Shown: positions 3,001-24,336 of the stretch, one piece after another | Position numbering within the stretch: the stretch's first letter is position 1 | How the letters are laid out: each line of letters begins with the position of its first letter | From: a virus | DNA length: 25,588 nt | IMG/VR virus record: IMGVR_UViG_3300021138_000153 | Coordinates: 1 to 25,588 of that record | Strand: one strand, 5' to 3' | Notes under the pieces: generated by a model | Seen by the model: only the letters and a program-made list of their open reading frames with translations | Databases searched by the model: none | What the model was told of the DNA's origin: nothing | Program-made: the position numbers and the translations under genes

Positions 3001-6000
3001 ATGCTTTTTGAAAAGTTATTGACCGCAGGTAAAGTTGCAGGGCCCACTGGGCCGTTCAAGCAACTTTATATGTGGGGGCTGGATTCAAGCGGACAGGTTG
3101 GCGATGGTGATGCTGCACTTGCAAACAAATCATCACCAATTCACATTGGCACCACAAGCTGGAAACAGGTAGCCCTGGGCGATGCACATACCTTGGCTAT
3201 CCGCAGCGACAACACACTGTGGGGCTGGGGCAGCAATGCCACTGGGCAAGTTGGCGCCAGCCAATATGTTGCAACATCACAGCCATTAATACCTGCCGCA
3301 GGCACGGTTTCCTGGAGTAGTATAACTTACGGGGTCAGTTATGGCATGGGCATCAAGACTGATGGATCTCTCTGGGGCTGGGGTGCAAATACTGCTGGAC
3401 AACTTGGTGACGGCACAACCACCACAAAACAAATAGCAGTTAAAATCGGATCCAGCAGTTGGAGCATGGTGGCTGCAGGATTAAGTCACACACTGGCATT
3501 AACGACTGATGGCAATCTATATGGATGGGGCTTGAACACCTCGGGACAAGTGGGTATTAGCTCGTTAACTTCTCCCATATCCAGTCCAGTGTTAGTGAGC
3601 GGGCCAGCTCTTACCTCCTGGATATCAATTGGTGTTGGCGGCACCCATTCTTTTGCCATCACAACAAACAAAACATTATGGGGCTGGGGTTTGAATACCT
3701 CAGGACAAGTTGGCATTGGCACTTTAACCACAGTATCCACCCCCACATTGGTGTCAGGACCCAGTGGCATCAGCTGGGCCAGTGTGACAGCCGGCGTCAT
3801 GCACACCAATGCCTTGGACATCTATTATAACTTGTATAGCTGGGGCGGGTCATTGTATGGCCAGTTGGGTAATGGCATGGTAGGTGGTGCTGGCGGCAAC
3901 AATCTGCCCATGATACAAGCTGCTTATGATCCCACTGACACCTCAAGTTCCTGGAACGTGGTGTCGGCAGGCATATCGTTTGGCATGGGCATCAAATCCG
4001 ACGGTTCATTGTGGGGTTGGGGGTTAAACACCAGCGGGCAACTGGGAGACGGCTCTGCTGCCACAAGAAGTTCTCCGGTTCACATCGGCACAAGTAGTTG
4101 GTCAGTGGTCAGTTGCGGTGCTGCACACAGTTTGGGCATCACAACAGACGGTCGCCTGTTTGGCTGGGGATTGAACACTAGCGGACAAACCGGTATCAAC
4201 TCCACTGCGGCTGTGTCATCTCCAGTGTTGGTGGTAGCACCCACCGCAGGGCTGTCCTGGACCGCTGTGGCAGCCGGCGCTTCGCATAGTTTGGGTATCA
4301 CCACAGCTGGCAGACTATATGCATGGGGACAAAATACCTCAGGTCAGGTTGGTATCGGGGCGGCAACCACCAAATCCAGCGCTGTTTTGGTTTCCGGGCC
4401 CACCAACACAAGTTGGAGCATGATTGCAGCAGGTTCATCATTCTCATTCGCCGTGGACATCACAAAAACCCTGTTGTATGCATGGGGTTTGAACTCCAGT
4501 GGACAGATCGGCAACAACACCACAACAGTGGCATTGACACCGGTGAATATACCACTGCCAGCTACTCGTGTCAGTTGGATCATGGTGTCAGCAGGAACGT
4601 CGTTTACTTTTGCTATTACAGACACAAATGCATTGTATCAGTGGGGGGCATTTGCCTCCTATACCGGTGGTGGAAACTATAGTAGTCCTGTAATGATAAC
4701 AGCCACCAGCAGTTACACCGCAGTTTATGCAAGGCCCGTAGCAGGGCATGTACTCTACAGCCTTGCGGCCAGCCCCGCTGCATTGTTTGGTGCAGGGTTG
4801 AACACCAGCGCACAAATTGCAGTTAGCGGTGCGCAAAGCACATGGCTAACAAACGCCACACTGAGTCCTGCTGTGATGTCTACGTTGCCGGCACCCACTA
4901 CCTCACTGGGCGTAGCACTGGGAGATTATCACAGTACAGTTGTGGGACCCAAGCTCTGGGGTGCAGGACAAAACATTGTTGCAGAAACAGGTGTTCCTTA
5001 TTATACAACAGTGCCCACATTAGCGGCAGCAAATACAACAATAGCTACTGCCACCTATTCAGTGGCCAGTGGCGCAAACCACACAGTGTTGGCAAGACCG
5101 GTCAACGGCAACATAAAAGGATGGGGATTAAACTCCCTGGGGCAATTGGGGATGGGTAACACGTCCACCGCGACACTAATCAGCTCTATACCCTACACTG
5201 CCACCGGCATCCCCAATGGTATCGCCAATGTCATATCCGGCCCTGCGTCTAACTTTACCTTCGCCATTGACACGGCGGGAATACTTTATGGCTGGGGTCT
5301 GAACTCCAACAGCCAATTGGGTATTAACTCAGCAAGTTCAATAATAAGTTCTCCTGTCATTGTTTCAGGACCCATTGCTACGTCTTGGATTGCAGTGGCA
5401 GCGGGTGATACCATGGCCGGGGCCATCTCTACTGCAAATTTGCTGTATGGTTGGGGTAATAATATCCTGGGCCAGACTGGCGTTCCCATAATAACAAACA
5501 GTCCTATACAAGTGGGCATTAGTTCTTGGTCAGCTGTGTCAGCGGGTATTGGTTTTTCTCTGGCTATCCGAAGTGACGCCACGTTGTGGGCATGGGGTAT
5601 AAACAATGCCGGCCAAATAGGAAATAGCACATTGGTAAACACCAGCAGTCCGGTGCTGGTGAGCGGACCCGCAACAACATCCTGGAGTTTGATATCAGCA
5701 GGAAGTTCTTATGCAGCCGCCATCACCAGCACCGGACTCCTTTATACTTGGGGGTTGGGGACCAGTGGTCAGTTGGGAAATAGTGATATTTTATCAGCAA
5801 GCACGCCTGTTCCAGTAGGGACAAGTTCCTGGAGTGCTGTATCAGCTGGCGGACGGCTTTTTATGTTGGGTATCAGTGCTGGACTACTGTTTGCATGGGG
5901 CAATAACACATATGGTCAGCTGGGCAATACAACACAAACACAGGCAAGCTCTCCCACATTGGTATCTGGACCAGTTGGTGCATCTTGGAAAATTGTTTCG

Positions 6001-9000
6001 GCAGGTGGTTTTTTTGGCTTGGCCGTTACAACAGCAGGCGTGTTGTATTCGTGGGGCAGCAATAATAATGGAAACCTTGGCACAAACAATATTGTGAGTA
6101 CATCCTCACCAGTTCAAGTCTCCACACCACTGTTTGTTACACCATCATGGATATCGGTGAGCGTGGGTGCGTCACACACAGCAGCAATTCAATCTGACTA
6201 CAGCTTGTGGACTTGGGGTCAAGGTACTTCGGGGCAGATTGGCGATGGCACGCTGGTGGGCAAGAGCTCACCAGTAAAGATTGGCAGCAGCAGTTGGAGT
6301 GTGGTAAGCGCAGGACAGGATTTCACACTGGCTTTGACCTCTGACAGCAGACTTTATGCGTGGGGACTGGGAACCGGCGGTCAGATAGGTATTGGAACCC
6401 TTGCCACAGTGTCTTCGCCTGTTGTGGTTTTGGGACCTGCTGGTGCAAGTTGGATTGCCGTGGCAGCAGGTAATGCTGCTGGCATGGCTATTACCACCAC
6501 CAATACACTTTATGGTTGGGGTGCAAACCTCAACGGATATAATGGCTTGTATACATCAGCTGCCAGCACCCCAGTTGCGGCCACAGGCATAGCAACGCAA
6601 CAAAGTTGGAGGCAAATCTCGGTTGGTGACAAACATACGCTGGGCATACAGTCTGATTACAGTTTGTGGGCATGGGGAAATAACCAAAGTGGGCAGTTGG
6701 GGGACAACACTGCTGTTGTGCAACAGCTAGTTCCTGAGAAAATAGGTTCATCCAGCTGGACTGTGGTGTCAGCTGGGGTTTCCTATAGCATGGGCATCAA
6801 AACGGACGGTACACTATATGGCTGGGGACTGAATTCATCAGGACAACTTGGGATTCTCAATACCTCTACCCAAAGCAGTCCGGTAGCGGCAGGCCAGTTT
6901 GGCGTATCATGGACCAGCGTCACCGCAGGTGCCTCAACCACGTTGGGGATCACAACCACAGGCGTCCTGTATGGATGGGGATCAAACTTATCCGGGGCTG
7001 CTGGAAACTTTCTTGCGGGAAACGCCAGTAGTCCAGTGCAAGTAGCTGGTGTGCCAACCATACAAAGCTGGATTCAGATGGCTCCCGGTGGTGCTCACAC
7101 TCTGGCGATTAAATCAGACGGCAGTCTGTGGGCCTGGGGAGTAAACACCAGTGGACAACTGGGAGACAACACAACTGCCACTAGAAGTCTTCCTGTGCAG
7201 ATTGCACTACCGGGCTTTACTGCCACAAGCTGGGTTTCTGTGACCGCAGGCGGCTCGCACAGCATGGGTATCACAAATGACGGCGCGTTGTGGGCATGGG
7301 GCTATAACAGCTTGGGACAAGTGGGAATCAACTCCACCACTACCACAGTAAGCACACCCAGTTTGGTATCCGGTCCTGCTGGGACCTCTTGGAGCTCGGT
7401 GTCGGCTGGTGATTCTCACAGCATGGCTATCACTACAACCGGCACTTTGTACGGATGGGGATATAATACCAGCGGGCAAACCGGAATCAACTCTGCGACC
7501 ACCACCAGCTCTCCCATTGCCATCTCTGCGATTGCAGCGTCCTTGTCAAGTTGGAAATATGCATCGCTGGGGTCTGCGCACACATTGGCAATTCAAACTG
7601 ACGGATCGCTGTGGGCGTGGGGTATAAACGCCGGAGGTGAACTGGGAGACAGCACTTCAGTAACAAAAAGCTCGCCTGTGAAAATAGGATCGTCTTCCTG
7701 GACCACAGTGGCAGCTGGCGCATTTCATTCCCTGGGGCTCACTACTGACGGAAAACTTTACGCCTGGGGGCTCAACACCAACAACGCGCTGGGAACTGGC
7801 GGTGGCACAACAACCTCTCCGGTATTGGTTTCCGGGCCTGCCAGCACTAGTTGGATGGCAATCACAGCAGGCATCAGTCACAGCATGGCAATCACCACAG
7901 CAGGTGCTCTATATGGATGGGGATTGAATACATCAGGGCAAGCTGCAACTGGCATAAGCGCCACCGTCAGTCCCACTATTATTCAAACTCCCAGTGCTCC
8001 GGGTTCATGGCTGCAACTATCTGTGGGCACAGATCACGGATTGGGGATTCAATCAGATGGCAGCTTGTGGGCATGGGGAAACAATCCTGTTGGTCAGCTG
8101 GGAGATGGCACCATCGTGGCAAAATCATCACCCAGCAAGGTAGGCTCAGGAAGTTGGTCGGCGGTGGCCGCAGGCAACAGCTTCAGCTTGGGCATATTGA
8201 CTACAGGTCAGTTATATGCATGGGGTTTGGGAACTAGCGGACAACTGGGAAACAGCAGCACTGCTGCCAGCTTCTCAAGTCCTGTTTTAGTAAGTGGACC
8301 AGCAACAACATCTTGGACCAAAATCACAGCAGGCGGATCACATGCTGCTGCCATCACCACCCTGGGAGCCTTGTGGACATGGGGAGTAGGCACAAGTGGC
8401 CAGCTGGGCAACGCATCCCTTACATCCGTCTCATCTCCCATACAGGTCGGCGCATCAAGCTGGACCGCCGTGACGGCAGGAGGTATTTACACTTTGGCTA
8501 TCAACTCCATTGGTGCACTTTATGGCTGGGGGTATGGCGGATATGGACAGCTGGGAACAAATACACCAACCTCTACGTCAAGTCCAGTTGCAGTCCTTGC
8601 GCCACCTGCTATATCATGGGCCAAGGTAAGCTCTGCTTGTGGCGGTAGTTTTACCATGGCTATCAAAAGTGACGGATCCCTGTGGGGATGGGGTGTTAAC
8701 ACAGTTGGGCAACTGGGAAATAACAGTACCGCAACAGCAGTGGGATCTCCCATACAAATCGGCACAAGTAGTTGGACAGCAGTGGCGTGCGGTGGTACTC
8801 CACACACTCTTGCAATCACCGCCACTGGCCAGCTTTATGCATGGGGAGCTAATTTGGGTGCATTGGGTATTAACTCACTGACGCCCACAACCATATCTAG
8901 TCCTGTGCTTGTGAGCGGTCCTGCATCTACATCTTGGGCGTCAGTGTCGGCAGGAACAACGCACAGCATGGCAATCACAACACTGGGTGCATTGTACGGA

Positions 9001-12000
9001 TGGGGACTAAACACATCAGGGCAGGCAGGTATTGGTTCACTGACCACAGTGAGTAGTCCAGTGCATGTGGGCACAAGCAGCTGGGCAGCAGTGTCTGCGG
9101 GAAACTTCTTTACGTTGGCAATTACCACAGACGGCAAACCCTACGGGTGGGGATTAAACACTTCGGGTCAAGTGGGTATCAGTGCTTTGACTTCGCCGTT
9201 GTCGAATCCCACTCTTGTGAGCGGACCTGTCAGCACATCATGGACCGCAATATCTGCATCAGGAGGAGGTGCGCATTCGCTGGGGGTGACAACTACCAAC
9301 CTGCTTTATGCTTGGGGACTGGCCACAAGTGGACAGCTTGGAAACAACAGCGTAACAGGCAGCATCAGCACACCACTTCTTGTGTCGGGTCCGGCCACTA
9401 CGTCGTGGGCATCAGTCTCAGCAGGTGGGAGCCATAGTTTGGCTATAACAACGACCGGTGCACTGTATGCATGGGGTTACAACGGATTTGGACAAATAGG
9501 CAACGGCACTGCGACCCAAGTTAGTGCCCCGGTGTTGGTTTCCACAGCAACAGGTGTCAGTTTCACTGCAATTTCTGCAGGATCGAATGCCAGTTTGGGT
9601 ATAACCAACCTCACGTGGTTGTTGGGGTTTGGCGACACCGCCGCCATGGCCAATAATATCAACGGAAACCTGAGCTGGCCCACTCAAATCTGGAGCTCTG
9701 GCGGGCCTGTGGTATCTTGGACGGCAGTGTCAGCTGGGCTTTACCACGCAGTGGGGTTAACTACAACAGGGACGCTGTATTCCTGGGGATTAAATAACTC
9801 AGGCCAAGTTGGTATCGGCACCCTGACTGCCAGCGTGCTTTTCCCCACCCTGGTATCAGGGCCAGCGGCAACATCCTGGACCAAAGTGGCAGCAGGATCC
9901 AGTTTTAGCTTTGGAACAACCGCAACCGGTCTGTTATATGCATGGGGTGCAAACGGTTCTGGACAGTTGGGAATAGCATCAGTCACCGCAGTAAGCAGTC
10001 CGGTATTAGTGAGTGGGCCGGTGGGTATGTCTTGGAGTGCTGTTGCAGCTGGCGTGTCGGGCAATTTTGGTATGGCCATCAACAGCACTGCAATGCTATA
10101 TGGCTGGGGGCTGAATACATCAGGACAAGCAGGTATTTATTCTACTACCACAGTGAGTTCGCCGGTGTTGGTGTATGGTCCAGTGACAAACGTTATATCC
10201 TGGACCGCAGTGTCTGCAGGCGGTAACCATTCACTGGGTATCACCACAACAGGACAACTTTATACATGGGGACTGAACACAGCAGGTCAACTTGGTATTG
10301 GTTCAGTAACAACGCAGTTCCAAGCCACACAGGCAGTATTCCCCATGCTGTCCTGGATTGCCATTGCTGGAGGTGGCACCCACAGCATGGCTATAACCAA
10401 TACTGGGCTGTTATATGCATGGGGTGCAAACGGTTCTGGACAGTTGGGAATAGCATCAGTCACCACAGTAAGCAGTCCTGTATTGGTAAGTGGGCCAGTT
10501 ACAACATCTTGGTCGGCAATATTTGCCGGATCCGTACATTCATTGGCAATAACAAACACAGGCATATTGTATGCGTGGGGAGATAATTTTGTAGGAGAGG
10601 TGGGCAACAACGGTGCAGGCACAACCATATCTAGTCCTGTGCTTGTGAGCGGTCCTGCTGCCACTTCTTGGTTGGCAGTGGGATTGGGACCTAACGCCTC
10701 ACACAGTGTGGCTATCACCGCCGGACTGGCTGGTGGCGGGTATCTATACGCTTGGGGGTATAATCAGTCAGGGCAGGCGGGGATAGGAGCCACGGCAACC
10801 CTGACAATAATCTCCACCCCCACTGCTGTTTATACAAACGCACCTGTTGCGTTCTCCTGGACCTCTGTGGCGGCTGGACAAGGCCACACGCTGGGACTTG
10901 CCGCAGATGGCAAGTTGTGGGCTTGGGGCGCCGGCACCAACTATGCGTTGGGTGATCCATTGGCAGCTACGCGACTTATACCCAGATTGATATCAGGACC
11001 CGCTGCCACATCTTGGACCCAGATTGCAGCTGGTTACAGCCACAGTCTGGCCATCACCACGGCTGGTGTGCTTTATGGATGGGGTTTGAATACCTCAGGA
11101 CAGGTAGGGGTGTCATCTCTAACCACAATTAGCTCACCAGTGATCGTTAGTGGACCAGTTGGTACGTCGTGGGCGGCTGTTTCGGCCGGACAATATCACA
11201 CCTTGGCTTACGACACAACTAGCACACTGTGGGGCTGGGGATTGAATACGTCAGGCCAAGTGGGCATCAACTCTCTGACAACTGTGAGCGCTCCAACTTT
11301 GGTGAGCGGTGCCACAGGTGCCAGCTGGAAGTTTATTGGAACCGGACCAATATCCACACACAGCGGTGCCATTGACACAAATAACTTCTTGTATGAATGG
11401 GGCTCAAACATCAGCTACCAACAAGGTGTAGGCACAACTGCCGCAACTTCTTCGCCCCAGGTGGTCTACACACCCGGCGCAACACTTAGCTGGACCGCTG
11501 TTAGCACCGGAACAAGTCATACCTTGGCAATCTCCACTTCAGGCCGGTTGTATTCTTGGGGGTATAATAACAATGGTCAACTGGGAGACACCACGCAAAC
11601 AACACGATTCATGCCCCAGTTGGTTTCGGGTCCCGCAGTTACATCTTGGAGCGCAGTGGCAGCGGGCGGAAGCCATTCACTGGCCGCTACAAATACAGGC
11701 ACTTTGTGGGGTTGGGGATTGAATACAAGCGGTCAGGCAGGTATCAACAGTTTGAGTTCAGTCAGCAGCCCAGTTGCAGTATCTGGTCCGGCAGGAACAT
11801 CTTGGTCTGTTATTGCAGCAGGATTACTTCATTCAGTAGGCGTGACTACCACAGGCCTACTGTATGCCTGGGGATTGAACTCATCTGGCCAGCTGGGCAC
11901 GAACTCGGTTACTTCAGTGTCTGTCCCCACCGTTGTAAGCGGACCCACTGCCACTTCCTGGACATTTGTTGCCGCCGGATCTCAAGCCACGCATGCCAGT

Positions 12001-12969
12001 GCAATCACATCAGGAAGCTTGCTTTATACATGGGGTTATGGCGGGTATTATCAGTTAGGTTATGCAACCACGTTTAATATTTCCAGCCCAGTGGTGGTAT
12101 ATACTCCAGGTGCCACAAGATCTTGGGTCACAGTGTCCATGGGAGCATCTCACACCCTGGGTATCACTACAAGCGGTCAGATGTATGCCTGGGGAACGAA
12201 CACATCGGTCCAACTAGGAGATTTGACTGGTATCAATAGAAACATGCCCATGTTGGTATCAGGACCTGCGGGAACGAGTTGGTCCTCTATAGCAGCAGGC
12301 GGCCTCCATTCACTGGCCATAACCACACAAGGAGCACTTTATGCTTGGGGAAACGGGTCAAACGGTGCGCTGGGTAATAACAGCATAGCGGCGTCGCTGT
12401 CCTCTCCTGTGCAGATTGGTTCAAGTTCCTGGACTGCTATTATGGCAGGATCAGCGCATTCCATGGCCATTACCGCCAATGGCCTACTTTATGCCTGGGG
12501 ATTTGATAGCAGTGGTCAGTTGGGCAACCTATCAATCGCAACAACAAGCTCTCCGTCATTAGTGAGCGGCCCGGCAGCAACTAGCTGGAAGGCTCTTGCA
12601 AGTGCAGGTGGTTTGGCAAATTACAGCATGGCAATAAGCTCAGGCAATCTGCTGTATGGTTGGGGATTGAACACCATCGGACAAGCGGGTATTGACTCAA
12701 TACTCAGCGTATCTAGCCCGGTAGTTGTAACACTTCCCGGTGCCAACATATCATGGACTGCGGTGTCGGCAGGAGCAAGCCATGTATTGGGCATTGGCAC
12801 TAACGGCGCCTTGTATGCATGGGGTGCTGACAGTTCAGGTCAGGTTGGCAACAACTCAGTTGTGACCGCAATAAGCGGACCAGTGCTGGTCAGCGGACCC
12901 ACATACACATCTTGGAGCGCAGTGGTCGGGGGTGCTGCGGCCAGTCATGCTGCGGCGGTGACAACATAA
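3001..12969 (+). CDS. Giant RCC1-repeat protein (about 63 blades)
   Basis: 3322 residues (roughly 330 kDa). A strong ribosome site AGGAG (2991-2995) sits five bases before the ATG and overlaps the end of the chaperone gene. After a short N-terminus (MLFEKLLTAGKVAGPTGP), the whole protein is RCC1-type repeats of about 44-60 residues with the consensus LYGWGLNTSGQLG...SSPVLVSGP..TSW.AVSAG..HSLAITT.G. By the L[YW]xWG motif I count about 63 units, which would give nine seven-bladed propellers. The first unit starts at LYMWG and the last one stops before its LYxWG strand, so N- and C-termini complement each other. There is no signal peptide, membrane segment or enzymatic domain. RCC1 folds are beta-propellers used for binding. 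The place after fibre and chaperone genes suggests a virion surface or adhesion role. Nothing supports a eukaryotic guanine-exchange function. Confidence 0.88.
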   Translation: MLFEKLLTAGKVAGPTGPFKQLYMWGLDSSGQVGDGDAALANKSSPIHIGTTSWKQVALGDAHTLAIRSDNTLWGWGSNATGQVGASQYVATSQPLIPAAGTVSWSSITYGVSYGMGIKTDGSLWGWGANTAGQLGDGTTTTKQIAVKIGSSSWSMVAAGLSHTLALTTDGNLYGWGLNTSGQVGISSLTSPISSPVLVSGPALTSWISIGVGGTHSFAITTNKTLWGWGLNTSGQVGIGTLTTVSTPTLVSGPSGISWASVTAGVMHTNALDIYYNLYSWGGSLYGQLGNGMVGGAGGNNLPMIQAAYDPTDTSSSWNVVSAGISFGMGIKSDGSLWGWGLNTSGQLGDGSAATRSSPVHIGTSSWSVVSCGAAHSLGITTDGRLFGWGLNTSGQTGINSTAAVSSPVLVVAPTAGLSWTAVAAGASHSLGITTAGRLYAWGQNTSGQVGIGAATTKSSAVLVSGPTNTSWSMIAAGSSFSFAVDITKTLLYAWGLNSSGQIGNNTTTVALTPVNIPLPATRVSWIMVSAGTSFTFAITDTNALYQWGAFASYTGGGNYSSPVMITATSSYTAVYARPVAGHVLYSLAASPAALFGAGLNTSAQIAVSGAQSTWLTNATLSPAVMSTLPAPTTSLGVALGDYHSTVVGPKLWGAGQNIVAETGVPYYTTVPTLAAANTTIATATYSVASGANHTVLARPVNGNIKGWGLNSLGQLGMGNTSTATLISSIPYTATGIPNGIANVISGPASNFTFAIDTAGILYGWGLNSNSQLGINSASSIISSPVIVSGPIATSWIAVAAGDTMAGAISTANLLYGWGNNILGQTGVPIITNSPIQVGISSWSAVSAGIGFSLAIRSDATLWAWGINNAGQIGNSTLVNTSSPVLVSGPATTSWSLISAGSSYAAAITSTGLLYTWGLGTSGQLGNSDILSASTPVPVGTSSWSAVSAGGRLFMLGISAGLLFAWGNNTYGQLGNTTQTQASSPTLVSGPVGASWKIVSAGGFFGLAVTTAGVLYSWGSNNNGNLGTNNIVSTSSPVQVSTPLFVTPSWISVSVGASHTAAIQSDYSLWTWGQGTSGQIGDGTLVGKSSPVKIGSSSWSVVSAGQDFTLALTSDSRLYAWGLGTGGQIGIGTLATVSSPVVVLGPAGASWIAVAAGNAAGMAITTTNTLYGWGANLNGYNGLYTSAASTPVAATGIATQQSWRQISVGDKHTLGIQSDYSLWAWGNNQSGQLGDNTAVVQQLVPEKIGSSSWTVVSAGVSYSMGIKTDGTLYGWGLNSSGQLGILNTSTQSSPVAAGQFGVSWTSVTAGASTTLGITTTGVLYGWGSNLSGAAGNFLAGNASSPVQVAGVPTIQSWIQMAPGGAHTLAIKSDGSLWAWGVNTSGQLGDNTTATRSLPVQIALPGFTATSWVSVTAGGSHSMGITNDGALWAWGYNSLGQVGINSTTTTVSTPSLVSGPAGTSWSSVSAGDSHSMAITTTGTLYGWGYNTSGQTGINSATTTSSPIAISAIAASLSSWKYASLGSAHTLAIQTDGSLWAWGINAGGELGDSTSVTKSSPVKIGSSSWTTVAAGAFHSLGLTTDGKLYAWGLNTNNALGTGGGTTTSPVLVSGPASTSWMAITAGISHSMAITTAGALYGWGLNTSGQAATGISATVSPTIIQTPSAPGSWLQLSVGTDHGLGIQSDGSLWAWGNNPVGQLGDGTIVAKSSPSKVGSGSWSAVAAGNSFSLGILTTGQLYAWGLGTSGQLGNSSTAASFSSPVLVSGPATTSWTKITAGGSHAAAITTLGALWTWGVGTSGQLGNASLTSVSSPIQVGASSWTAVTAGGIYTLAINSIGALYGWGYGGYGQLGTNTPTSTSSPVAVLAPPAISWAKVSSACGGSFTMAIKSDGSLWGWGVNTVGQLGNNSTATAVGSPIQIGTSSWTAVACGGTPHTLAITATGQLYAWGANLGALGINSLTPTTISSPVLVSGPASTSWASVSAGTTHSMAITTLGALYGWGLNTSGQAGIGSLTTVSSPVHVGTSSWAAVSAGNFFTLAITTDGKPYGWGLNTSGQVGISALTSPLSNPTLVSGPVSTSWTAISASGGGAHSLGVTTTNLLYAWGLATSGQLGNNSVTGSISTPLLVSGPATTSWASVSAGGSHSLAITTTGALYAWGYNGFGQIGNGTATQVSAPVLVSTATGVSFTAISAGSNASLGITNLTWLLGFGDTAAMANNINGNLSWPTQIWSSGGPVVSWTAVSAGLYHAVGLTTTGTLYSWGLNNSGQVGIGTLTASVLFPTLVSGPAATSWTKVAAGSSFSFGTTATGLLYAWGANGSGQLGIASVTAVSSPVLVSGPVGMSWSAVAAGVSGNFGMAINSTAMLYGWGLNTSGQAGIYSTTTVSSPVLVYGPVTNVISWTAVSAGGNHSLGITTTGQLYTWGLNTAGQLGIGSVTTQFQATQAVFPMLSWIAIAGGGTHSMAITNTGLLYAWGANGSGQLGIASVTTVSSPVLVSGPVTTSWSAIFAGSVHSLAITNTGILYAWGDNFVGEVGNNGAGTTISSPVLVSGPAATSWLAVGLGPNASHSVAITAGLAGGGYLYAWGYNQSGQAGIGATATLTIISTPTAVYTNAPVAFSWTSVAAGQGHTLGLAADGKLWAWGAGTNYALGDPLAATRLIPRLISGPAATSWTQIAAGYSHSLAITTAGVLYGWGLNTSGQVGVSSLTTISSPVIVSGPVGTSWAAVSAGQYHTLAYDTTSTLWGWGLNTSGQVGINSLTTVSAPTLVSGATGASWKFIGTGPISTHSGAIDTNNFLYEWGSNISYQQGVGTTAATSSPQVVYTPGATLSWTAVSTGTSHTLAISTSGRLYSWGYNNNGQLGDTTQTTRFMPQLVSGPAVTSWSAVAAGGSHSLAATNTGTLWGWGLNTSGQAGINSLSSVSSPVAVSGPAGTSWSVIAAGLLHSVGVTTTGLLYAWGLNSSGQLGTNSVTSVSVPTVVSGPTATSWTFVAAGSQATHASAITSGSLLYTWGYGGYYQLGYATTFNISSPVVVYTPGATRSWVTVSMGASHTLGITTSGQMYAWGTNTSVQLGDLTGINRNMPMLVSGPAGTSWSSIAAGGLHSLAITTQGALYAWGNGSNGALGNNSIAASLSSPVQIGSSSWTAIMAGSAHSMAITANGLLYAWGFDSSGQLGNLSIATTSSPSLVSGPAATSWKALASAGGLANYSMAISSGNLLYGWGLNTIGQAGIDSILSVSSPVVVTLPGANISWTAVSAGASHVLGIGTNGALYAWGADSSGQVGNNSVVTAISGPVLVSGPTYTSWSAVVGGAAASHAAAVTT
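6205..8517 (+). repeat. Three-blade super-repeat within the RCC1 gene
   Basis: Units of the type SDGSLWAWG...GQLGD.T...KSSPVKIGSSSW recur as every third blade: their LW codons start at 6205, 6664, 7126, 7609 and 8065 (spacing 456-483 bases), with two LY-type blades between. This indicates expansion by copying three-blade modules. Confidence 0.7.
9931..10496 (+). repeat. Near-identical 89-base direct repeat in the RCC1 gene
   Basis: Bases 9931-10019 and 10408-10496 match at 85 of 89 positions, with the first 57 bases identical. They are 477 bases apart (three blades). The blade encodes LYAWGANGSGQLGIASVT in both copies. Another 30-40 base identity (CCATATCTAGTCCTGTGCTT and following) occurs near 8889 and 10624. 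Confidence 0.8.
10567..12969 (+). repeat. Four-blade super-repeat at the 3' end of the RCC1 gene
   Basis: Blades of the type with a lengthened loop before HSxAI start at 10567, 11227, 11860 and 12487 (spacing 627-660 bases). Two blades later in each set comes GDxxxxTRxxPxLVSGP, preceded by a VYTPGATxSW segment. The last third of the gene therefore grew by copying four-blade modules, unlike the three-blade period upstream. Confidence 0.7.
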
Positions 12970-16026: not shown

Positions 16027-16853
16027 TGTTTGAAAAAAGCACAACGGCATCAACACCGGTTTATCAAGTTGATGTCTTTCTGCGAACTTGTTGCAGAACC
16101 GGTATAGAACATCCCACTGACCCCAAACCTCGCTGCGTGGCAGACACGCGAGCCACAATGATAATTAAATGTCTCAGTAGTTTGGTCACCAGTATCAAGA
16201 ATAGCAAAAACCATGTGAAATTGTGGATTGTGGATGATCACAGCGGGGATGAATTTCTGGCGCTTGTCCAGGCTCAGCTTGAAGGCGTAAACCATCACAT
16301 TGAACCACTCACAGACACCACTGGCTTTCGCGCCAGTGCAGTGCGTCAGGGCGAGTTATGCTTGGCAAATGGCAGAGAATTTGTTTATCTTGTGGAAGAT
16401 GATTATTTTCATGATCCACACGCAATAGACTTAATGGTGCATAGTTTGATCAGTTTGCAGCAAAGCGTAAATCAAATGCCCTGTGCAATCTTCCCCTACG
16501 ACTGCGTAGACAGGTATCACAAAGAATTTCCCCAACCCTGCAGAGTATTTTACACGCAAGGGTTGCATTGGCGCACTGTGACAAAAAGCAGCAACACAGT
16601 TATGCTATCTCATGGAACATTTTATTACACATATGGTATATGGAATAAAATGTTTGCTAATTATGACCCCTGGTCACTGAGCGAGGACCACACCATCAAT
16701 ACATTGTGGAGCAACATGGTGGATTTTGGCGGAAAAGTGGTGCTCTTTAGTCCCATCCCCAGTGTGGCAATGCATCTGGAACATCAAGAGCCCACTGTTG
16801 TGTCGCAGGGCTTGATTGATTGGCGGCAACAGTGGCAAGCTCTTAAAGCTTGA
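16026..16853 (+). CDS. GT-A (family 2-like) glycosyltransferase
   Basis: 275 residues from the ATG at 16026, which overlaps the previous TGA (TGATG). A GTG one codon upstream (16023) is also in frame, but the overlap arrangement favours ATG. GT-A features are seen: WIVDDHSGDE (67-76), like the nucleotide-binding strand of GT2 enzymes; YLVEDDYFHDP (121-131), carrying the acidic metal-binding DxD-like site; SEDHTIN (219-225); and late His residues (250, 253) that could complete metal binding. No membrane segment. It ends a three-gene sugar cassette and would extend or start the glycan handled by the two GT-B proteins. Donor and acceptor cannot be deduced. Its last 11 bases overlap a convergent gene. 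Confidence 0.7.
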   Translation: MFEKSTTASTPVYQVDVFLRTCCRTGIEHPTDPKPRCVADTRATMIIKCLSSLVTSIKNSKNHVKLWIVDDHSGDEFLALVQAQLEGVNHHIEPLTDTTGFRASAVRQGELCLANGREFVYLVEDDYFHDPHAIDLMVHSLISLQQSVNQMPCAIFPYDCVDRYHKEFPQPCRVFYTQGLHWRTVTKSSNTVMLSHGTFYYTYGIWNKMFANYDPWSLSEDHTINTLWSNMVDFGGKVVLFSPIPSVAMHLEHQEPTVVSQGLIDWRQQWQALKA

Positions 16854-17270: not shown

Positions 17271-18404
17271 TTAGAGAGAAATACCATTGAAGCTGGTGTC
17301 GGTCACATCCATCTTGGCGTCACCAATCCGGTAGCTTGACAACTGAACTTGCTGAGGAGCAACTTGAACTTCCTTGCCGGAAATCCACTTGGTGGTCCAG
17401 GGAAGGGGGTTGCTACGACTACGGAACGGACTCCGTAGTCCCACGCTTTCCATGCGCTGGTTGGCAATATATTCCACATAGTCCTTGAGCAAGGCAGCGT
17501 TGAGGCCAATCATGCTGCCGTCCCGGAACAAATAATCTGCCCAGTCTTTTTCTTGATCCACAGCCGCCAGGAACATCCTGGTCACTTGTTCCTGGCACTC
17601 CTGTGCAATTTCAGCAAATTCTGGATCGTCCTTGGGCAGAAGTTTGAGCAGAGTCTGAGTTGATCCCAAATGCAAGTTTTCATCACGGCAGATAAATTTG
17701 ATGATCTTGGCGTTGCCTTCCATTTTCTTGAGTTCTGCAAAAGCCCACGAACATGCAAAACTTACATAAAAACGTATTCCTTCCAGTGCGTTAACAGCAT
17801 TGAGGCACAACCATATACGTCGCTTTAGCTCATGTAGATCCACAGTGACAGTATCACCATTCACTGTGTGTGTGCCCACACCCAAGACGTGATATAGCTG
17901 CGTGTAATGGATGAGATTGTCGTAATCCAGTGTGATGTCCTTGGCGCAATTCACAATGCTTTCGATGTCCATGAGTTCATCAAATATCTTGCTGGGGTCG
18001 CTGTAGACATTGCGGATAATGTGAGTGTAGGCCTTGCTGTGAATGGTTTCACTGAACGCCCAGGTTTGAATCCAAACTTCCAGCTCGGGCAAACTGCACA
18101 GGGGCAACAGAGCCAAGTTGGGGGCTCGCCCCTGCACTGAGTCCAGGAGTATCTGACGCTTGAGGTTGCTGGTAAAGATATGCTGTTCATGTGCAGTTAG
18201 CGCACGAAAATCTTTGCTGTCTTTGCCAATATCCACCTCACTGGGTCTCCAAAAGAAACCCAGTTGGTCTTCCGTTAGCCGGTCAAATACCCTGTATTTG
18301 ATCTTGTCATAACGGGCCACTGTTGTTGTCCCGGATGGGTCCAGGAATGCCAGTAGCTTGGTGTTATCGGCGTGGTTATTGGTGTCAAGTGTTTGAAATG
18401 ACAT
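17271..18404 (-). CDS. nrdB: Ribonucleotide reductase class Ia small subunit (NrdB, R2)
   Basis: 377 residues, the usual length for enterobacterial-type R2. It makes and holds the diiron-tyrosyl radical that NrdA uses to reduce ribonucleoside diphosphates. All metal ligands are seen by analogy with E. coli: D88 (LLDSVQGR), E119 and H122 ([16 protein letters not shown]), E208 ([15 protein letters not shown]), E242 and H245 ([10 protein letters not shown]). The radical tyrosine is Y126, and W52 of FFWRPSEVD starts the electron-transfer path. It is therefore a tyrosyl-radical enzyme, not a Tyr-less variant. The C-terminus ([12 protein letters not shown]) is the expected R1-docking tail. The gene follows nrdA by ten bases; its ribosome site AGGA (18416-18413) overlaps the nrdA TAG, so the two are coupled. 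Confidence 0.97.
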
Positions 18405-18414
18405 ATGTTTTATC

Positions 18415-20736
18415 CTATATGACGCACGCTTCGCAATCTGCGTCGTCTATTGTTTCAGGTTCGTTGTTGGTATTGGCTGAATCTGCGGCAGTGTCAAGCT
18501 TGAATTCGCCCTGACCATCCAGGGTATTCATATAGTAGAACGTTTTGATTCCCCATTTATATCCCAGCAACAAATGACGTAGCAGTTCACTCATGGGTAA
18601 CTGATTGTCGGGATAATGTTCGGGATTGTAGCTGGTGTTGGTTGAGATGGATTGATCTATATACTTTTGAAGCACGGCTGCAATCTTGAGATATCCTTCG
18701 GGACTCTTTTGATCCCACAGCAGATCATATTTGTTCTTGAGGCGGCGATATTCCGGCACAACCTGCTTGAGCACGCCATCCTTGCTTTGCTTGATGCTCA
18801 CATAGCTGCGTGGTGGCTCAATGCCGTTGGTGGCATTGCTTATCTGGCTGGAACTTTCAGATGGCATCAAACAAGCCACAGTGCTGTTGCGGATGCCGTA
18901 AGTTGTTGCAGATTGGCGCAATACATCCCAGGGCAGGCGTTCAACATGGGGCACAATCTCATCTATTTCTGGCTTGCGGGTGTCAATAGGCATGATTCCC
19001 TGACTATACTTTGTATCATTATTACCTTCACACGCGCCGTATTCTCTGGCTAGGTCCACAGAGGCTTTGATGAGATAGTAACTCCATGCTTCAGCATATT
19101 CATCCACCACTTGCAACGCATCATCATTGTATTTCAATCCATTTTTAGCCAACCAGTAGGAAAAATTTATAATTCCCACACCGAGTGGTCTGTAGAGCTC
19201 TGTGTGCCTCTGAGCTGCTAGTATGGGATAGCTTTGATAGCTCAGCAGTGCATCCAACCCTCTAATAGCCAACGTGCAGGGTTTTTCAAAATCCTTGGGT
19301 TCTCGAATTTTTCCCCAGTTTATGGCTGACAGCGTACACAGTGCCACAAGACCATTTGGATCATTTACATCATTTAGTGGTTTGGTAGGAAGTGTCACCT
19401 CTAGGCAAAGGTTGGATTGTCTGATTGGTGCAACATCTTCACGGAAGCTGCTGTGCGTGTTGGCATGGTCCACATTCATTACATAGATCCGGCCTGTATT
19501 CTTGCGTTCTTGCATAAAACTTGTAAACAAATCAATGGCTTTGATCGTCTTTTTTCTAATGCGGGTGTTCCGCTCGGCCGCCTCATAAAGTTCTGTGAAT
19601 TTCTCTTGATCCTGGAAGAATGCGTCATATAAACCCGGCACATCGCTGGGGCTAAACAGTGTGATGTTACCGCCGCTGAGCAGGCGCTCGTATGCCAGTT
19701 TGTTGAATTGCACACCGTAATCCATGTGGCGAGCACGGTTTTCTTCGGTGCCCTTGTTGTTTTTGAGCACGATGAGGTCTTCAAACTCGTATGTCCAGAA
19801 GGGGAAATAAAGAGTAGCTGACCCGGATCTAATTCCGCCTTGGTTGCAGCTCTTGACAGCGCTCTGGAACAGTTTGATGAAAGGTATGATGCCGGTATGA
19901 TAGGAATCACCCTGCCGTATGGGACTTCCCACTGCTCTGATACGGCCGGCATTAATGCCAATACCTGCTTTCTGACTCACATATTTCACAATGGCGGACG
20001 TGGTCGCATTGATGCTGTCAATGGAGTCATCGCATTCAATCAACACACATGAGGAAAACTGACGCTGTGGTGTGCGCACACCGGCCATAACTGGTGTGGG
20101 CAAGCTGATATAGTGTTGGCTAATGGCATCGTAATAGTCTTTGACCCACTTCATGCGGGTTTCCTGTGGATAACGTGCAAAAAGTGTAGCTGCAATTAAG
20201 ATATAGAGTATCTGTGGTGTTTCCCACAGTTTGCCTGTGACACGGTTCTTGACCAGGTATTTACCGCGTAGCTGTTCCATGGCAGCATAAGTGAGATCAT
20301 AGTCTCTGTCATGGTCCATGTAGGTATCCATGATGGCCCATTCGGCACTGTTGTAATCTGCCAACAGTTGAGCATCATAATAACCAGCTTCTGTTACCGC
20401 ACGCACATGATATTCCAGTTTTGGCGGCAAGATGCCGCCAAATACTTCCTTGCGGATGTGATAATTGATTAGTCTGCCTGCCACATACTGGTAGTTGGGT
20501 GCTTCTTCGCTAATGAGATCAGCAGCGGCTTTGATCAGGGTTTCCTGAATATCCACGGTCTTGATGCCGTTGTAGAACTGCAACTGACTTTTGATCTCAA
20601 CTTCGCTTGCAGAAACGCCGCTGGTACCTTCAGTGGCCCACAGGACCTGGCGATGTATTTTTTCAATATTCAGCGACTCTCGGCTGCCATCGCGTTTGGT
20701 CACTTGTATGTTGGTGTGGGCTCTGATTGCATTCAT
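18415..20736 (-). CDS. nrdA: Ribonucleotide reductase class Ia large subunit (NrdA, R1)
   Basis: 773 residues, close to the 761 of E. coli NrdA. An intact N-terminal ATP-cone (about 8-95, [40 protein letters not shown]) suggests activity control by ATP/dATP is kept. Active-site residues are present: C230 and C467 (redox pair), N442, C444 (thiyl radical) and E446 in [10 protein letters not shown], and Y734-Y735 in KTFYYMN on the radical path. The C-terminal redox tail ends DCEACVI, a C-x2-C (768, 771), shorter than the C-x4-C of E. coli; it would receive electrons from thioredoxin or glutaredoxin, neither of which is in the window. Start ATG has AGAGG nine bases upstream and its own promoter. 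It supplies dNTPs for phage replication together with NrdB. Confidence 0.97.
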
Positions 20737-20758
20737 TTAATATTACCTCTTCTAGATG

Positions 20759-20788
20759 ATTATAGACAGAACCGCCATGCTTATGCAA
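20759..20788 (-). promoter_or_regulatory. Promoter of the nrdA-nrdB operon
   Basis: On the minus strand, TTGCAT (20788-20783), an 18-base spacer, and a perfect TATAAT (20764-20759). Transcription would start near 20752, just before the AGAGG ribosome site (20750-20746). The -35 box is weak, so an activator or phage factor may help. It lies directly downstream of the terminator inside the preceding gene. Confidence 0.55.
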
Positions 20789-20814
20789 GCAGTCTGAAGT
20801 TATTTGTGTTGTGG

Positions 20815-21288
20815 TTAAGTGGTTATGGCAACAGCGGCGTCTTCATGATAATGAAACCGACGCTGAATCAAAAAGCTGGTCCGAGAATCGGACCAGCTTG
20901 TGATACGTTGATATTCCCATCCCAGCAGCCAGGTGTTGTTGACACACAGGCCCAGTTGCAACTGATGCCTTGCAGTGTCTTTCAGCAACATCAAGCACAG
21001 TTGATCGGAATTCCACCGGGAGTTTTCTGCCAGGTTTAGTGTATATAGCATGCCCAAGCTCACGCTGCTGGCGTCAAAGTTGCCATTATACAGCAGCATC
21101 CAGGGATCAGGCCAGGTGTCGCTGTGATCATAATCCAGCACGTGGTTTTGCAGTGGGGCACGGCTCCACCAATCCACCACCAGTTGCAAGTATTGTTCGT
21201 CGGTCAATTGACCTGTGAGTTGAGACCTCAATGTTTTCCAAGCCTGAAGGCAGTGTTCACCTCCCATTATGAAATCCCAGTTACTCAT
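20815..21288 (-). CDS. Conserved-type phage protein of unknown function
   Basis: 157 residues. Start ATG at 21288 has a strong GGGAG site seven bases upstream. The core reads WWSRAPLQNHVLDYD, then SDTWPDPWMLLYNGNFD and SLGMLYTLNL (about 40-85), a Trp/Asp/Pro-rich pattern I have the impression is widespread in T4-like phages but cannot name. No signal peptide or membrane segment. It follows the receptor-binding-type gene by 33 bases and is probably co-transcribed with it, which hints at a structural or assembly role (inference). Odd: a strong intrinsic terminator lies within codons for residues about 129-138 (SWSDSRTSF), so the last 20 or so residues are encoded beyond it. Confidence 0.7.
   Translation of the reverse strand: MSNWDFIMGGEHCLQAWKTLRSQLTGQLTDEQYLQLVVDWWSRAPLQNHVLDYDHSDTWPDPWMLLYNGNFDASSVSLGMLYTLNLAENSRWNSDQLCLMLLKDTARHQLQLGLCVNNTWLLGWEYQRITSWSDSRTSFLIQRRFHYHEDAAVAITT
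20870..20899 (-). terminator. Intrinsic terminator inside a coding sequence
   Basis: Read on the minus strand: a perfect 12-base-pair stem (AAGCTGGTCCGA / TCGGACCAGCTT) with a 3-base loop, running into five Ts. The plus strand lacks a T run, so it acts on leftward transcription. It lies about 55 bases before the stop codon of the 157-residue gene and upstream of the nrdA promoter. Confidence 0.8.
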
Positions 21289-21321: not shown

Positions 21322-21864
21322 TTAGTGTTTTAGGACAAAACTGTAAACATGCTGACTGGCAGCGCTTGTGGCATCTGTGGCCAACTGCAAGCTAACAACA
21401 TCCCCGCGATAGACAACCACATTGCCTGACACAGTGACATTATTGCTGGTGCCACTTATATTGCCCGTCATATTGGTTGCCGAGCCATTGTGATATACAG
21501 TATAGGCGTAATTCAAACTGGCGCCCGGAGGCAGTGTGCTCTGGGCGCTGACACTGCGCAAAATGCCTGATACCGGCATTAAAAATCCCGAAGCAGTGCT
21601 GTTGTTGGTGCCATCCACACCCACAGGCCCCAGATACACTGTGCTGCCGGCGCTGACAGTGCTGGCAGTGGCCCCAAAAAACGGCACAGTGGCTTGGCTG
21701 AATTCTGTTAAAACTTCTGTGTTGGCACCAAAGCCGTCGCTGTTGCCTATGAATAGTTGTCGGGTATCCACGCAGAAGCCCAATTCGCCTTCTGCTAGTT
21801 GATCGGGCAGGTCGCTGCGTATGCCTCGGCGATGTTGGATCTGGCTGATCACGTTAATGGTCAT
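21322..21864 (-). CDS. Tail/receptor-binding protein with Mtd-type N-terminal domain
   Basis: 180 residues from the ATG at 21864, which has GGAG ten bases upstream; the frame extends 20 codons further up, but that part has no ribosome site and no phage-like sequence, so the longer start is rejected. Residues 1-50 (ISQIQHRRGIRSDLP, LAEGELGFCVDTRQLFIGN) match the N-terminal attachment domain found in many phage tail fibre and tropism-determinant proteins. Residues 60-180 are Gly/Ser/Thr/Val-rich beta structure (GSTVYLGPVGVDG, FLMPVSGILRSVSAQ, VVYRGDVVSLQLATD), resembling trimeric jelly-roll tips of collagen-like proteins. Likely a short tail or decoration protein that binds host or virion. Domain assignment is good for the N-terminus, tentative for the C-terminus. 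Confidence 0.72.
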   Translation of the reverse strand: MTINVISQIQHRRGIRSDLPDQLAEGELGFCVDTRQLFIGNSDGFGANTEVLTEFSQATVPFFGATASTVSAGSTVYLGPVGVDGTNNSTASGFLMPVSGILRSVSAQSTLPPGASLNYAYTVYHNGSATNMTGNISGTSNNVTVSGNVVVYRGDVVSLQLATDATSAASQHVYSFVLKH

Positions 21865-21886
21865 CTTGTTTGTTCTCCGTGTTGGG

Positions 21887-21894
21887 TATTTATC
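21887..21894 (-). promoter_or_regulatory. Possible T4-type late promoter (GATAAATA)
   Basis: GATAAATA on the minus strand (21894-21887) matches seven of eight bases of TATAAATA and lies 23 bases before the ATG of the tail protein gene, the expected distance for a late promoter. No sigma-70 -35 box accompanies it. Fits a late structural gene. Confidence 0.4.
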
Positions 21895-21939
21895 ACCTCT
21901 GCATTTCAGGCCAGATGTCTCCACAACAGAATCTTTAGG

Positions 21940-21994: not shown

Positions 21995-22168
21995 ATGCGT
22001 TTTTTTGGTTTGGGTTGGACTGTCTATCTTATCTTTATGGCCGTAGGCTGGGTTTTGAACATCGTGACCATCGTTTCACATATCAACGACCCCATCACCA
22101 CCATGACCGTGCTGCGAGTTGTGGGAATTGTTGCAGCGCCACTGGGCGGTGTGATGGGGTATATTTGA
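21995..22168 (+). CDS. Small two-helix membrane protein
   Basis: 57 residues. Ribosome site AAGGAA (21981-21986) lies eight bases before the ATG, and a strong promoter lies just upstream. Two hydrophobic stretches are visible: about residues 6-29 (WTVYLIFMAVGWVLNIVTIV) and about 39-57 (VLRVVGIVAAPLGGVMGYI), separated by a short polar loop with HINDPITT. The N-terminus is MRFFGLG. It is likely an inner-membrane protein; small early phage membrane proteins can block superinfection, affect lysis or alter host membranes, but nothing shows which. The frame is shorter than 60 codons, and a longer overlapping frame (21799-22206) is a shadow. The stop is adjacent to the -35 box of the next promoter. 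Confidence 0.75.
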   Translation: MRFFGLGWTVYLIFMAVGWVLNIVTIVSHINDPITTMTVLRVVGIVAAPLGGVMGYI

Positions 22169-22196
22169 TTGACAGCACCAGCAACAGTGCCATAAT
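22169..22196 (+). promoter_or_regulatory. Extended -10 sigma-70 promoter, small gene 2
   Basis: TTGACA (22169-22174), 13 bases, TGC, CATAAT (22191-22196). It begins on the base after the stop codon of the upstream small gene. A TATAAATC (22202-22209, one mismatch to the T4 late motif) follows 14 bases before the next ATG. Confidence 0.72.
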
Positions 22197-22223
22197 ATCA
22201 TTATAAATCAAATAGGCACCCCA

Positions 22224-22505
22224 ATGACCGATTTTCCCAAAGCTCAATTCAATTACATAGGCAACGCCTACGCTGGTGCAGCAGCACTGGGTATCGACAC
22301 TGGCAATCTTACCAAAGATCGTGCTGACAGCTTGATGCGAGTGCTTTGCAAGACCACTTGGTTAGAGGACAACCCCACTGCTTACCGACTGTGGGTGCTG
22401 GGCGGGGACCCCTGGGGACAGTTTGTGAAAGATTTGGTAGATTACACTCGCACAGTGCGTGCTTGGCAGAGGAAAACCGCCAAAAAATCTGCAAAGAAAG
22501 GTTGA
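22224..22505 (+). CDS. Hypothetical small phage protein
   Basis: 93 residues, family not recognised. The N-terminal half (FNYIGNAYAGAAALGIDTGNLTKDRADSL) looks helical; WLEDNPTAYRLWVLGGDPWGQFVKDLVDYTR follows; the C-terminus is strongly basic (RKTAKKSAKKG), which could bind nucleic acid (inference). No clear ribosome site: only a weak TAGG upstream of the ATG. It has its own promoter, and its TGA stop lies inside the TTGACA box of the following promoter. Likely an early, small accessory gene. Confidence 0.7.
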   Translation: MTDFPKAQFNYIGNAYAGAAALGIDTGNLTKDRADSLMRVLCKTTWLEDNPTAYRLWVLGGDPWGQFVKDLVDYTRTVRAWQRKTAKKSAKKG

Positions 22506-22529
22506 CATTGGCAACAGGCGTGCTATTAT
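22502..22529 (+). promoter_or_regulatory. Extended -10 sigma-70 promoter, small gene 3
   Basis: TTGACA (22502-22507), 13 bases, TGC, TATTAT (22524-22529). The -35 box contains the TGA stop codon (22503-22505) of the preceding gene. Predicted start near 22536, leader about 23 bases with AAGGAA. Confidence 0.78.
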
Positions 22530-22558
22530 GACGACATAGAGAGCAAGGAACACACAAC

Positions 22559-22840
22559 ATGCTTTGCTACGATGAAGTCAGTGTGCGTACGCCCTTTCGC
22601 AGTGCTGTGCCCTATGCCAATCTCAATGCCAACAAAAATTGGGAAACGCATTATGCAAACAGTCTCATGTTGAAATTTTACATTCAGCAAGGTAGCGCAC
22701 AAGAAAAAATACAAGCAAGCTCAGAGCTTGCTGTGTGCGATCGTAAATTAAAATACTGGGCGCAACATCCTAACTTCTGCGCGCGCACAGCAGAGCAAAC
22801 TGCTCAAAAACTCAAAAAAACCTGGCAGAACGCACGATAA
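22559..22840 (+). CDS. Hypothetical small phage protein
   Basis: 93 residues, family not recognised. AAGGAA (22545-22550) lies eight bases before the ATG. The N-terminus contains YDEVSVRTPFRSAVPYANLNANKNWETHYANSL in sections; the rest is helical and basic (QEKIQASSELAVCDRKLKYW, TAQKLKKTWQNAR). No signal or membrane segment. The C-terminal 50 residues resemble a helical hairpin. It has its own strong promoter and sits between two other small early-type genes; function unknown. Confidence 0.68.
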   Translation: MLCYDEVSVRTPFRSAVPYANLNANKNWETHYANSLMLKFYIQQGSAQEKIQASSELAVCDRKLKYWAQHPNFCARTAEQTAQKLKKTWQNAR

Positions 22841-22844
22841 ACGG

Positions 22845-22872
22845 TTGACAGACCGAATCCCTGTGTTAGGAT
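22845..22872 (+). promoter_or_regulatory. Extended -10 sigma-70 promoter of the SWIM gene
   Basis: TTGACA (22845-22850), 13 bases, TGT, TAGGAT (22867-22872). The box starts four bases after the previous TAA. The first ATG of the next gene (22879) lies seven bases after the -10, where transcription itself should start, so the mRNA would be leaderless. Confidence 0.68.
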
Positions 22873-22878
22873 GGTGTC

Positions 22879-23292
22879 ATGATGAAAAACACCCTGCCCC
22901 AAGTGGGCGATCAAATCACTGTTGCTGTGCGCAACCACACTCAACACATGCTGACGTGGTATCCTGCCACCACCACTTATCAGGGCCGCATTGTGGCCAC
23001 GCCAGCTTGGGTGGAGCAGGGCTATTTTTGCATGACTGGCACTGATCGACATGCCATGCGCGTGATCAAGTGGGCTGACGTCGCAACCATCACCAAGGGT
23101 GGTGTGGAGGTTGTTGTTCCTGTAGTGAAAACCGCCCCGCAGCCTGCGATCAAAACCTACGAAATTGCAGGCAGCCGGGGCAATACCTACACTGTGACCA
23201 ATCGCAATGGTGCTTGGAGTTGTTCCTGCCCTGCCGGAAATTTCGGAAAAGATTGCAAGCATGTCAAGGCGGCCAAACTTCAGGCCGCCTAA
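22879..23292 (+). CDS. SWIM zinc-finger protein
   Basis: 137 residues. The C-terminal part has a SWIM zinc finger, CxCx(n)CxH: C115, C117, C126 and H128 in WSCSCPAGNFGKDCKHVKA, preceded by the usual strand-rich lead-in (NTYTVTNRNGAW). SWIM fingers bind DNA or proteins and occur in recombination and repair factors. Residues 8-75 are a separate beta-rich region (VGDQITVAVRNH, GRIVATPAW, RVIKWADVATI), perhaps a small OB- or SH3-like barrel (inference). The two domains are joined by a Pro/Val linker. Two tandem ATGs (22879, 22882) begin the gene without a ribosome site; the promoter position predicts a leaderless mRNA. Its TAA overlaps the TAG of the convergent exonuclease gene. It may act with that nuclease in DNA processing (inference). 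Confidence 0.8.
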   Translation: MMKNTLPQVGDQITVAVRNHTQHMLTWYPATTTYQGRIVATPAWVEQGYFCMTGTDRHAMRVIKWADVATITKGGVEVVVPVVKTAPQPAIKTYEIAGSRGNTYTVTNRNGAWSCSCPAGNFGKDCKHVKAAKLQAA

Positions 23293-24006: not shown

Positions 24007-24336
24007 TTATTTCTTGATGGCAGATTTCGCCATTTTGCTGACATGGTCTTGAGCCTTTTCCACAGAGTCCTGGGCCCCCAGGGCACTGGGGGTGTCTACA
24101 TTGAGGTAAATTGCATCAGGTGTGATGTTCTTTACAAAGGCAGCACCATCCAGAGTATCCATGACCCAGTCCTTGCTAACATCCCATTCTTGCCCATATA
24201 GGCTGTGCATGGTGTCCAACACAGTGCTCATGTCTACCTTGCTCTTTTTCTGAGCAAGGTAGGGTATGAACATCTGTTTGAGACTTTGATCTACCTCAGC
24301 CTCAATGTCCTCGCACAAGAGTTCGCTTATGCGCAT
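24007..24336 (-). CDS. Hypothetical small acidic phage protein
   Basis: 109 residues, family not recognised. Starts MRISELLCEDIEAEVDQSL, an acidic helix; LLCE resembles the L-x-E cleavage sites of T4-type prohead proteases, which is only a hint. The middle (DMSTVLDTMHSLYGQEWDVSKDWVMDTL in sections) is helical and the C-terminus is basic (SKMAKSAIKK). ATG lies one base after the TAA of the upstream gene (TAACATG), so the two are translationally coupled; a weak AAGAAG site is inside that gene. Shared transcript and possibly shared complex with the zinc-ribbon protein. Confidence 0.65.
   Translation of the reverse strand: MRISELLCEDIEAEVDQSLKQMFIPYLAQKKSKVDMSTVLDTMHSLYGQEWDVSKDWVMDTLDGAAFVKNITPDAIYLNVDTPSALGAQDSVEKAQDHVSKMAKSAIKK

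Follow-up and report, generated by a model that had tools for sequence, protein, structure and literature searches.

A perfect hairpin with a run of T residues lies in the 3' part of a protein gene just ahead of nrdA in this phage DNA. The question is whether it acts as a transcription terminator that translation can suppress, or represents an accident of mutation. The following features are found at this locus of the window, i.e., the whole stretch of 25,588 nt that was analysed.

21322–21924, minus strand: upstream same-strand gene for a 200-aa protein with an Mtd_N domain
20815–21288, minus strand: gene for a 157-aa protein, containing the hairpin; unnamed family conserved beside nrdA in this jumbo-phage group
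20873–20899, minus strand: hairpin, perfect 12-bp stem, AAGCTGGTCCGA TTC TCGGACCAGCTT, with 7 G-C pairs and a 3-nt TTC loop
20866–20874, minus strand: U tract of the putative terminator, TTTTTGATT, codons TTT TTG ATT (F, L, I)
20759–20764, minus strand: TATAAT, a perfect -10 box, candidate -10 of an nrdA promoter
20746–20752, minus strand: GAAGAGG, Shine-Dalgarno-like, before the nrdA ATG at 20736
18415–20736, minus strand: nrdA, class Ia ribonucleotide reductase large subunit, 773 aa
17271–18404, minus strand: nrdB, ribonucleotide reductase small subunit, 377 aa

The hairpin and its T run

The preliminary description of this DNA placed a 12-pair perfect stem with a 3-base loop and a T run about 55 bases before a stop codon, and this observation is confirmed. 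The stem runs from 20899 to 20873 on the minus strand; from its 3' end there are 58 nt to the end of the 157-aa ORF and 137 nt to nrdA. Its orientation is sense with respect to the 157-aa gene as well as to nrdA and nrdB. The hairpin encodes residues T-S-W-S-D-S-R-T-S-F of the protein, and the core structure has a delta G of -17.7 kcal/mol. Downstream of the hairpin on the minus strand is TTTGATTC (TTTGATT). The five-T run consists of the last two T residues of the stem and the next three (plus-strand A's at 20870–20874), and 52 nt separate it from the stop codon at 20817–20815. With GATT after the five T residues, the U tract is a good one that falls short of the ideal.

A G-C-rich stem with a short loop and a U-rich tract directly 3' of it in the direction of transcription (nT 4.06 on the minus strand) are the properties of an intrinsic terminator. 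The d'Aubenton-Carafa-type score is 31.2 for the minus strand, against 0.1 for the plus strand. The minus-strand score is the best value in the window, where no other site scores above zero, and the site thus scores as the strong intrinsic terminator that had been proposed. Judged by sequence, it carries all features of a bacterial transcription stop signal, and it is known from one phage only.

A first-order Markov model of the window predicts 0.017 perfect 12-bp stems per window, and sites scoring > 31 have a mean of 0.0019 per window on both strands (534 Markov windows); these per-window figures overstate the rarity because the feature was picked from a larger scan, and the Markov null is too low given the excess of long perfect stems in this phage group. 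When the codons that form the hairpin are varied synonymously, 8 of 497,664 versions have the full 12 bp at its dyad, and 12 bp is reached anywhere in the gene in 34 of 20,000 synonymous shuffles. There is no second copy of a hairpin arm without mismatch in the window (scattered half matches with two mismatches only), an exact copy of the hairpin was not found elsewhere in IMG/VR, and Rfam gave no match. A repeated or mobile terminator element and a known RNA family are rejected on these grounds.

The same terminator scan was applied to Pseudomonas phage PA5oct (100 kb), T4, E. coli, the closest large relative G002 (400 kb of an IMG/VR contig of 452.8 kb; nrdA 80%) and other relatives. There are 14 intergenic terminators scoring > 20 in the 400 kb of G002, including 45.8, 33.6, 28.3, 25.4, 24.3 and 22.8, and five in the 100 kb of PA5oct (35.4, 31.7, 27.9, 27.4, 23.5). 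The T4 intergenic terminator scores 28.2; the E. coli scores are 57.4 for an intergenic terminator and 46.7 for the MG1655 rph-pyrE attenuator. The window hairpin falls in the range of the intergenic terminators of G002 and PA5oct. Within coding sequences, no sense site > 7 is present in the scanned stretches of PA5oct, T4 and E. coli, and no credible same-strand internal site > 7 in about 1.4 Mb of relatives' coding sequence; the maximum sense score in about 0.98 Mb from relatives other than G002 is 3.6. One sense internal site in G002 (L189:1275–1298, score 37.4), the only one there scoring > 20, was set aside because the ORF was called mechanically and the site occupies its very first codons; as judged but not proven, it probably lies before the real start. 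The in-gene site of the window is unusual, yet it was selected from a larger scan.

The 157-aa gene and its relatives

The 157-aa protein has no match in Pfam or PHROG. Genes of its family adjoin nrdA in most IMG/VR loci that carry the closest NrdA sequences. The PA5oct homologue (EST35_0242) is directly before nrdA, and the homologue in Sinorhizobium phage Phosso comes after a tail-fibre gene. The nearest homologues have 35–45% aa sequence identity. The segment TSWSDSRTSF encoded by the hairpin is variable among them and nearly equal in length. The alignment runs gap-free through and past this segment, and a conserved stretch, IQ-(R/Q)-x-(F/Y)-x-Y, sits after it. The hairpin is therefore in ancestral coding sequence and not in an added tail. 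An extension of the C-terminus over an old terminator, suggested in the preliminary description together with a homologue alignment as its check, is rejected by this alignment. The hairpin is in the translated part of the gene, before the stop codon, as is characteristic of an in-gene terminator suppressed by translation.

A T-tailed hairpin is absent from the last 330 nt of the gene and from the spacer in the nearest relatives (L006, L007/L016, L008, L105; nrdA 76–82%) and in the family members L102 and L103 (42–45%). The spacer before nrdA is about 59–126 nt in near relatives and shorter in many others. The distant relative L150 has a weak spacer hairpin with a score of 7.0, the only one among the relatives scanned. 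A terminator or attenuator conserved at this gene boundary is rejected on this evidence, and the hairpin appears to be lineage-specific. Variation that breaks the stem in close relatives had been put forward as a refutation; searches with the 157-aa protein, NrdA and an alignment of the close clade found no close relative with a diverged stem.

A translation-suppressible terminator and its alternatives

Long perfect stems are a general property of this phage group. In 719 kb of coding and non-coding sequence, 28 perfect stems of at least 10 bp are observed vs 4.5 expected from the Markov model. Perfect stems of at least 9 bp are mostly in coding sequences, at about 16–17 per 100 kb in both the window and G002, and nearly all are without a T tail. 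The coding sequences of G002 (367 kb) have 64 such stems, with 31 of at least 10 bp and 7 of at least 12 bp. The coding sequences of the window have four: the one at 20873–20899 and three T-less hairpins.

24234–24262: perfect hairpin in coding sequence, 11 bp, no T run
20420–20442: perfect hairpin in coding sequence, 10 bp, no T run
17417–17440: perfect hairpin in coding sequence, 9 bp, no T run

In relatives, some stems are found repeatedly at one position and appear to be imposed by protein motifs (FFW-PEE in nrdB). Since T-less long perfect stems are common in the coding sequences of the group, the stem at 20873 needs no selection, and by itself it may be a by-product of template-switch mutation. 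It also follows that long perfect hairpins alone should not be taken as regulatory elements in these jumbo phages, where the T tail is the informative part. The T run, and not the stem, sets the 20873 site apart. The probability of a T run this good after a given coding position is about 0.001. With three internal stems of at least 10 bp, the chance of a stem plus tail is about 0.003 for the window, and it is several percent over all stems surveyed. A sense T tail of this type is found in one of roughly 70 internal stems of at least 10 bp. The low chance of the combination favours a function and does not prove one.

The reading given the most weight, at just short of an even chance, is that of a lineage-specific intrinsic terminator in the 3' part of a translated gene, which translation suppresses and which would stop uncoupled transcription before the nrd genes. 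A ribosome close behind RNA polymerase would cover the 5' arm, with read-through into nrdAB. If translation of the 157-aa gene lagged or was absent, the polymerase would terminate on the T run, some 50 nt short of the stop codon, yielding non-stop mRNA and little read-through; nrdA would then rely on its own promoter just downstream. The structural-type genes and the nrd genes would thereby show polarity or be partly insulated from each other. Several results are consistent with this reading, i.e., the top score of the window, in the same range as intergenic terminators of relatives, the lack of a credible sense site > 7 in the relatives' coding sequence, the low probability of the T tail, a host RNA polymerase that very likely serves at least the early-type genes, and the effect of translation measured on lambda tR2 (below). 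Against it stand the nearest relatives, which are without a T-tailed hairpin at this position, the abundance of T-less stems in the group, and a T run that encodes hydrophobic F-L-I, a stretch rich in T because of the protein.

The promoter evidence consists of one perfect -10 box and a poor -35. The candidate -35, TTGCAT at 20788–20783 (18-nt spacer), matches TTGACA at 3 of 6 positions. There is also a short dyad, TGCTT-GCAT-AAGCA, at 20791–20778 near this candidate promoter. The -10 box and the Shine-Dalgarno-like sequence downstream of the hairpin point to a separate promoter for nrdA, and because of these elements the nrd genes need not rely on read-through. The idea that the terminator isolates the nrd operon from the upstream gene or links it to that gene is weakened as a conserved device, both by these elements and by its absence in the nearest relatives. 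Any regulatory connection with nrd is unproven and lacks conservation.

Host RNA polymerase obeys intrinsic terminators. Four small plus-strand genes within 21995–23292 (starts at 21995, 22224, 22559 and 22879) form an early-type cassette between minus-strand genes. Each has its own TTGACA-16-TANNAT promoter, most with TG before the -10. From these promoters, host RNA polymerase very likely transcribes at least the early-type plus-strand genes.

That translation affects such a terminator has been measured at a similar geometry. With lambda tR2 in a construct where the stop codon is 38 bp after the U tract (vs 52 nt here), efficiency is down to 40% of the intergenic value (PMC4824070). Ribosomes near a terminator repress it, and a late-gene terminator keeps part of its activity; repression of tR2 placed just after a stop codon is abolished once translation is removed in the same system (PMC4824070). 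Ribosome stalling before a terminator restores termination (PMC5021804). The suppression by ribosomes that had been predicted for this site is thus established for an in-gene terminator elsewhere. As in the tR2 constructs, the stem and U tract here are late in the coding sequence, and termination would leave an mRNA without a stop codon, as the preliminary description had said. The tR2 terminators were built and measured, whereas the present site is natural and known from its nucleotide sequence. By analogy, it should pass coupled transcription and stop uncoupled transcription; we infer that the terminator is active and is suppressed by translation, and likewise that nrdA has its own promoter. 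Translation-conditional termination is already known behaviour, from the lambda tR2 constructs and E. coli rph-pyrE. The site offers a clean natural test case of a strong intrinsic terminator in the end of a translated gene, a situation usually studied by constructs.

Separation of transcription and translation by a phage nucleus would prevent suppression by ribosomes. It was set aside, as no match to phiKZ chimallin or to an RNA polymerase beta subunit was found in 400 kb of G002 or 100 kb of PA5oct; the search used sequence alone and has little power for distant homologues, and the window covers only 25.6 kb.

A mutational accident is a nearly equal rival to the terminator reading and is judged a substantial possibility, somewhat below it. 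A template-switch (quasipalindrome-correcting) replication error would have created the perfect short-spacer inverted repeat where the protein is variable, and a T-rich run of hydrophobic codons would have followed it by chance; any termination would be incidental, with no selected role. Short-range template switching is documented to make perfect hairpins in one step (PMC8794818). The hairpin has the marks of such an event: a perfect inverted repeat with a short loop and an unchanged segment length, in a group with many similar stems, nearly all T-less, three of them in the window. Because the segment length equals that of homologues, the arms arose by change of existing sequence rather than by insertion. 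Compared with the template-switch hairpins, the T tail is an additional feature; the error does not by itself explain it, and its frequency per coding position and among the internal stems, given above, counts against an accident. The homologues, at their level of protein identity, are too far in DNA for a reconstruction of the event.

Two more specific regulatory readings are much less probable. In the first, which is considered improbable, the in-gene terminator is a coupling sensor: transcription started in the upstream structural-type unit reaches nrd only as long as ribosomes keep up with the polymerase, and nrd otherwise uses its own promoter. If true, an rph-pyrE-type attenuator would have evolved independently within a coding sequence. 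The second, a shade less probable still, is a true pyrBI or rph-pyrE attenuator, in which RNA polymerase slows when nucleotides are scarce, allowing the ribosome to catch up and block the hairpin; nrdAB is then transcribed, and nucleotide-metabolism genes thereby respond to nucleotide supply. The pyrBI operon differs from the present locus, with its 157-codon conserved gene and no U-rich cluster, in its short leader peptide and its U-rich, UTP-sensitive pause. The likeness to pyrBI of E. coli (named in PMC4824070, PMC5021804) is a terminator hairpin that overlaps a translated frame upstream of nucleotide genes. The layout is also that of E. coli rph-pyrE, a natural case with a translated full-length upstream gene, a terminator, and a same-strand nucleotide-metabolism gene, where read-through depends on how far translation runs (PMC2784333). 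The pair of the 157-aa gene and nrdA is conserved, nrdA follows 137 nt after the stem, and the MG1655 pyrE attenuator is itself recognised by the same scan. The E. coli attenuator is between rph and pyrE, however, and the present hairpin is inside the upstream gene, with no relation by sequence. The hairpin is preceded by GGGATGGGAATATCAACGTATCACAAGC, and the 40 nt ahead of it contain no U-rich pause cluster; the candidate promoter lies downstream of it, and the nearest relatives have no such hairpin at the same gene boundary. A palindrome that serves not as a terminator but as DNA, or as a site for protein binding or RNA processing, is highly improbable: the dyad is perfect and many T-less stems of this type are in the group, but the full sequence is unrepeated in the window and in IMG/VR, has no Rfam match, and the stem is absent from relatives at that position.

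Neighbouring genes and other structures

A T-tailed 8-bp hairpin (AGCAAGCTCTGAGCTTGCT TGTATTTTTT) at 22732–22714 on the minus strand is antisense within the plus-strand gene 22559–22840. Minus-strand transcription reading through from the exonuclease gene could end at this hairpin. In the region 23267–23292, two convergent genes share 4 nt (23289–23292) and a perfect AGGCGGCC/GGCCGCCT stem ends at the stop codon, and another convergent gene pair overlaps at 16843–16853. On the plus strand, positions 3001–12969 encode a 3322-aa protein with repeats that are RCC1-like by eye. It is preceded by a collagen-like GPTG-repeat protein (21–2483), and both are probably fibre or adhesin proteins.
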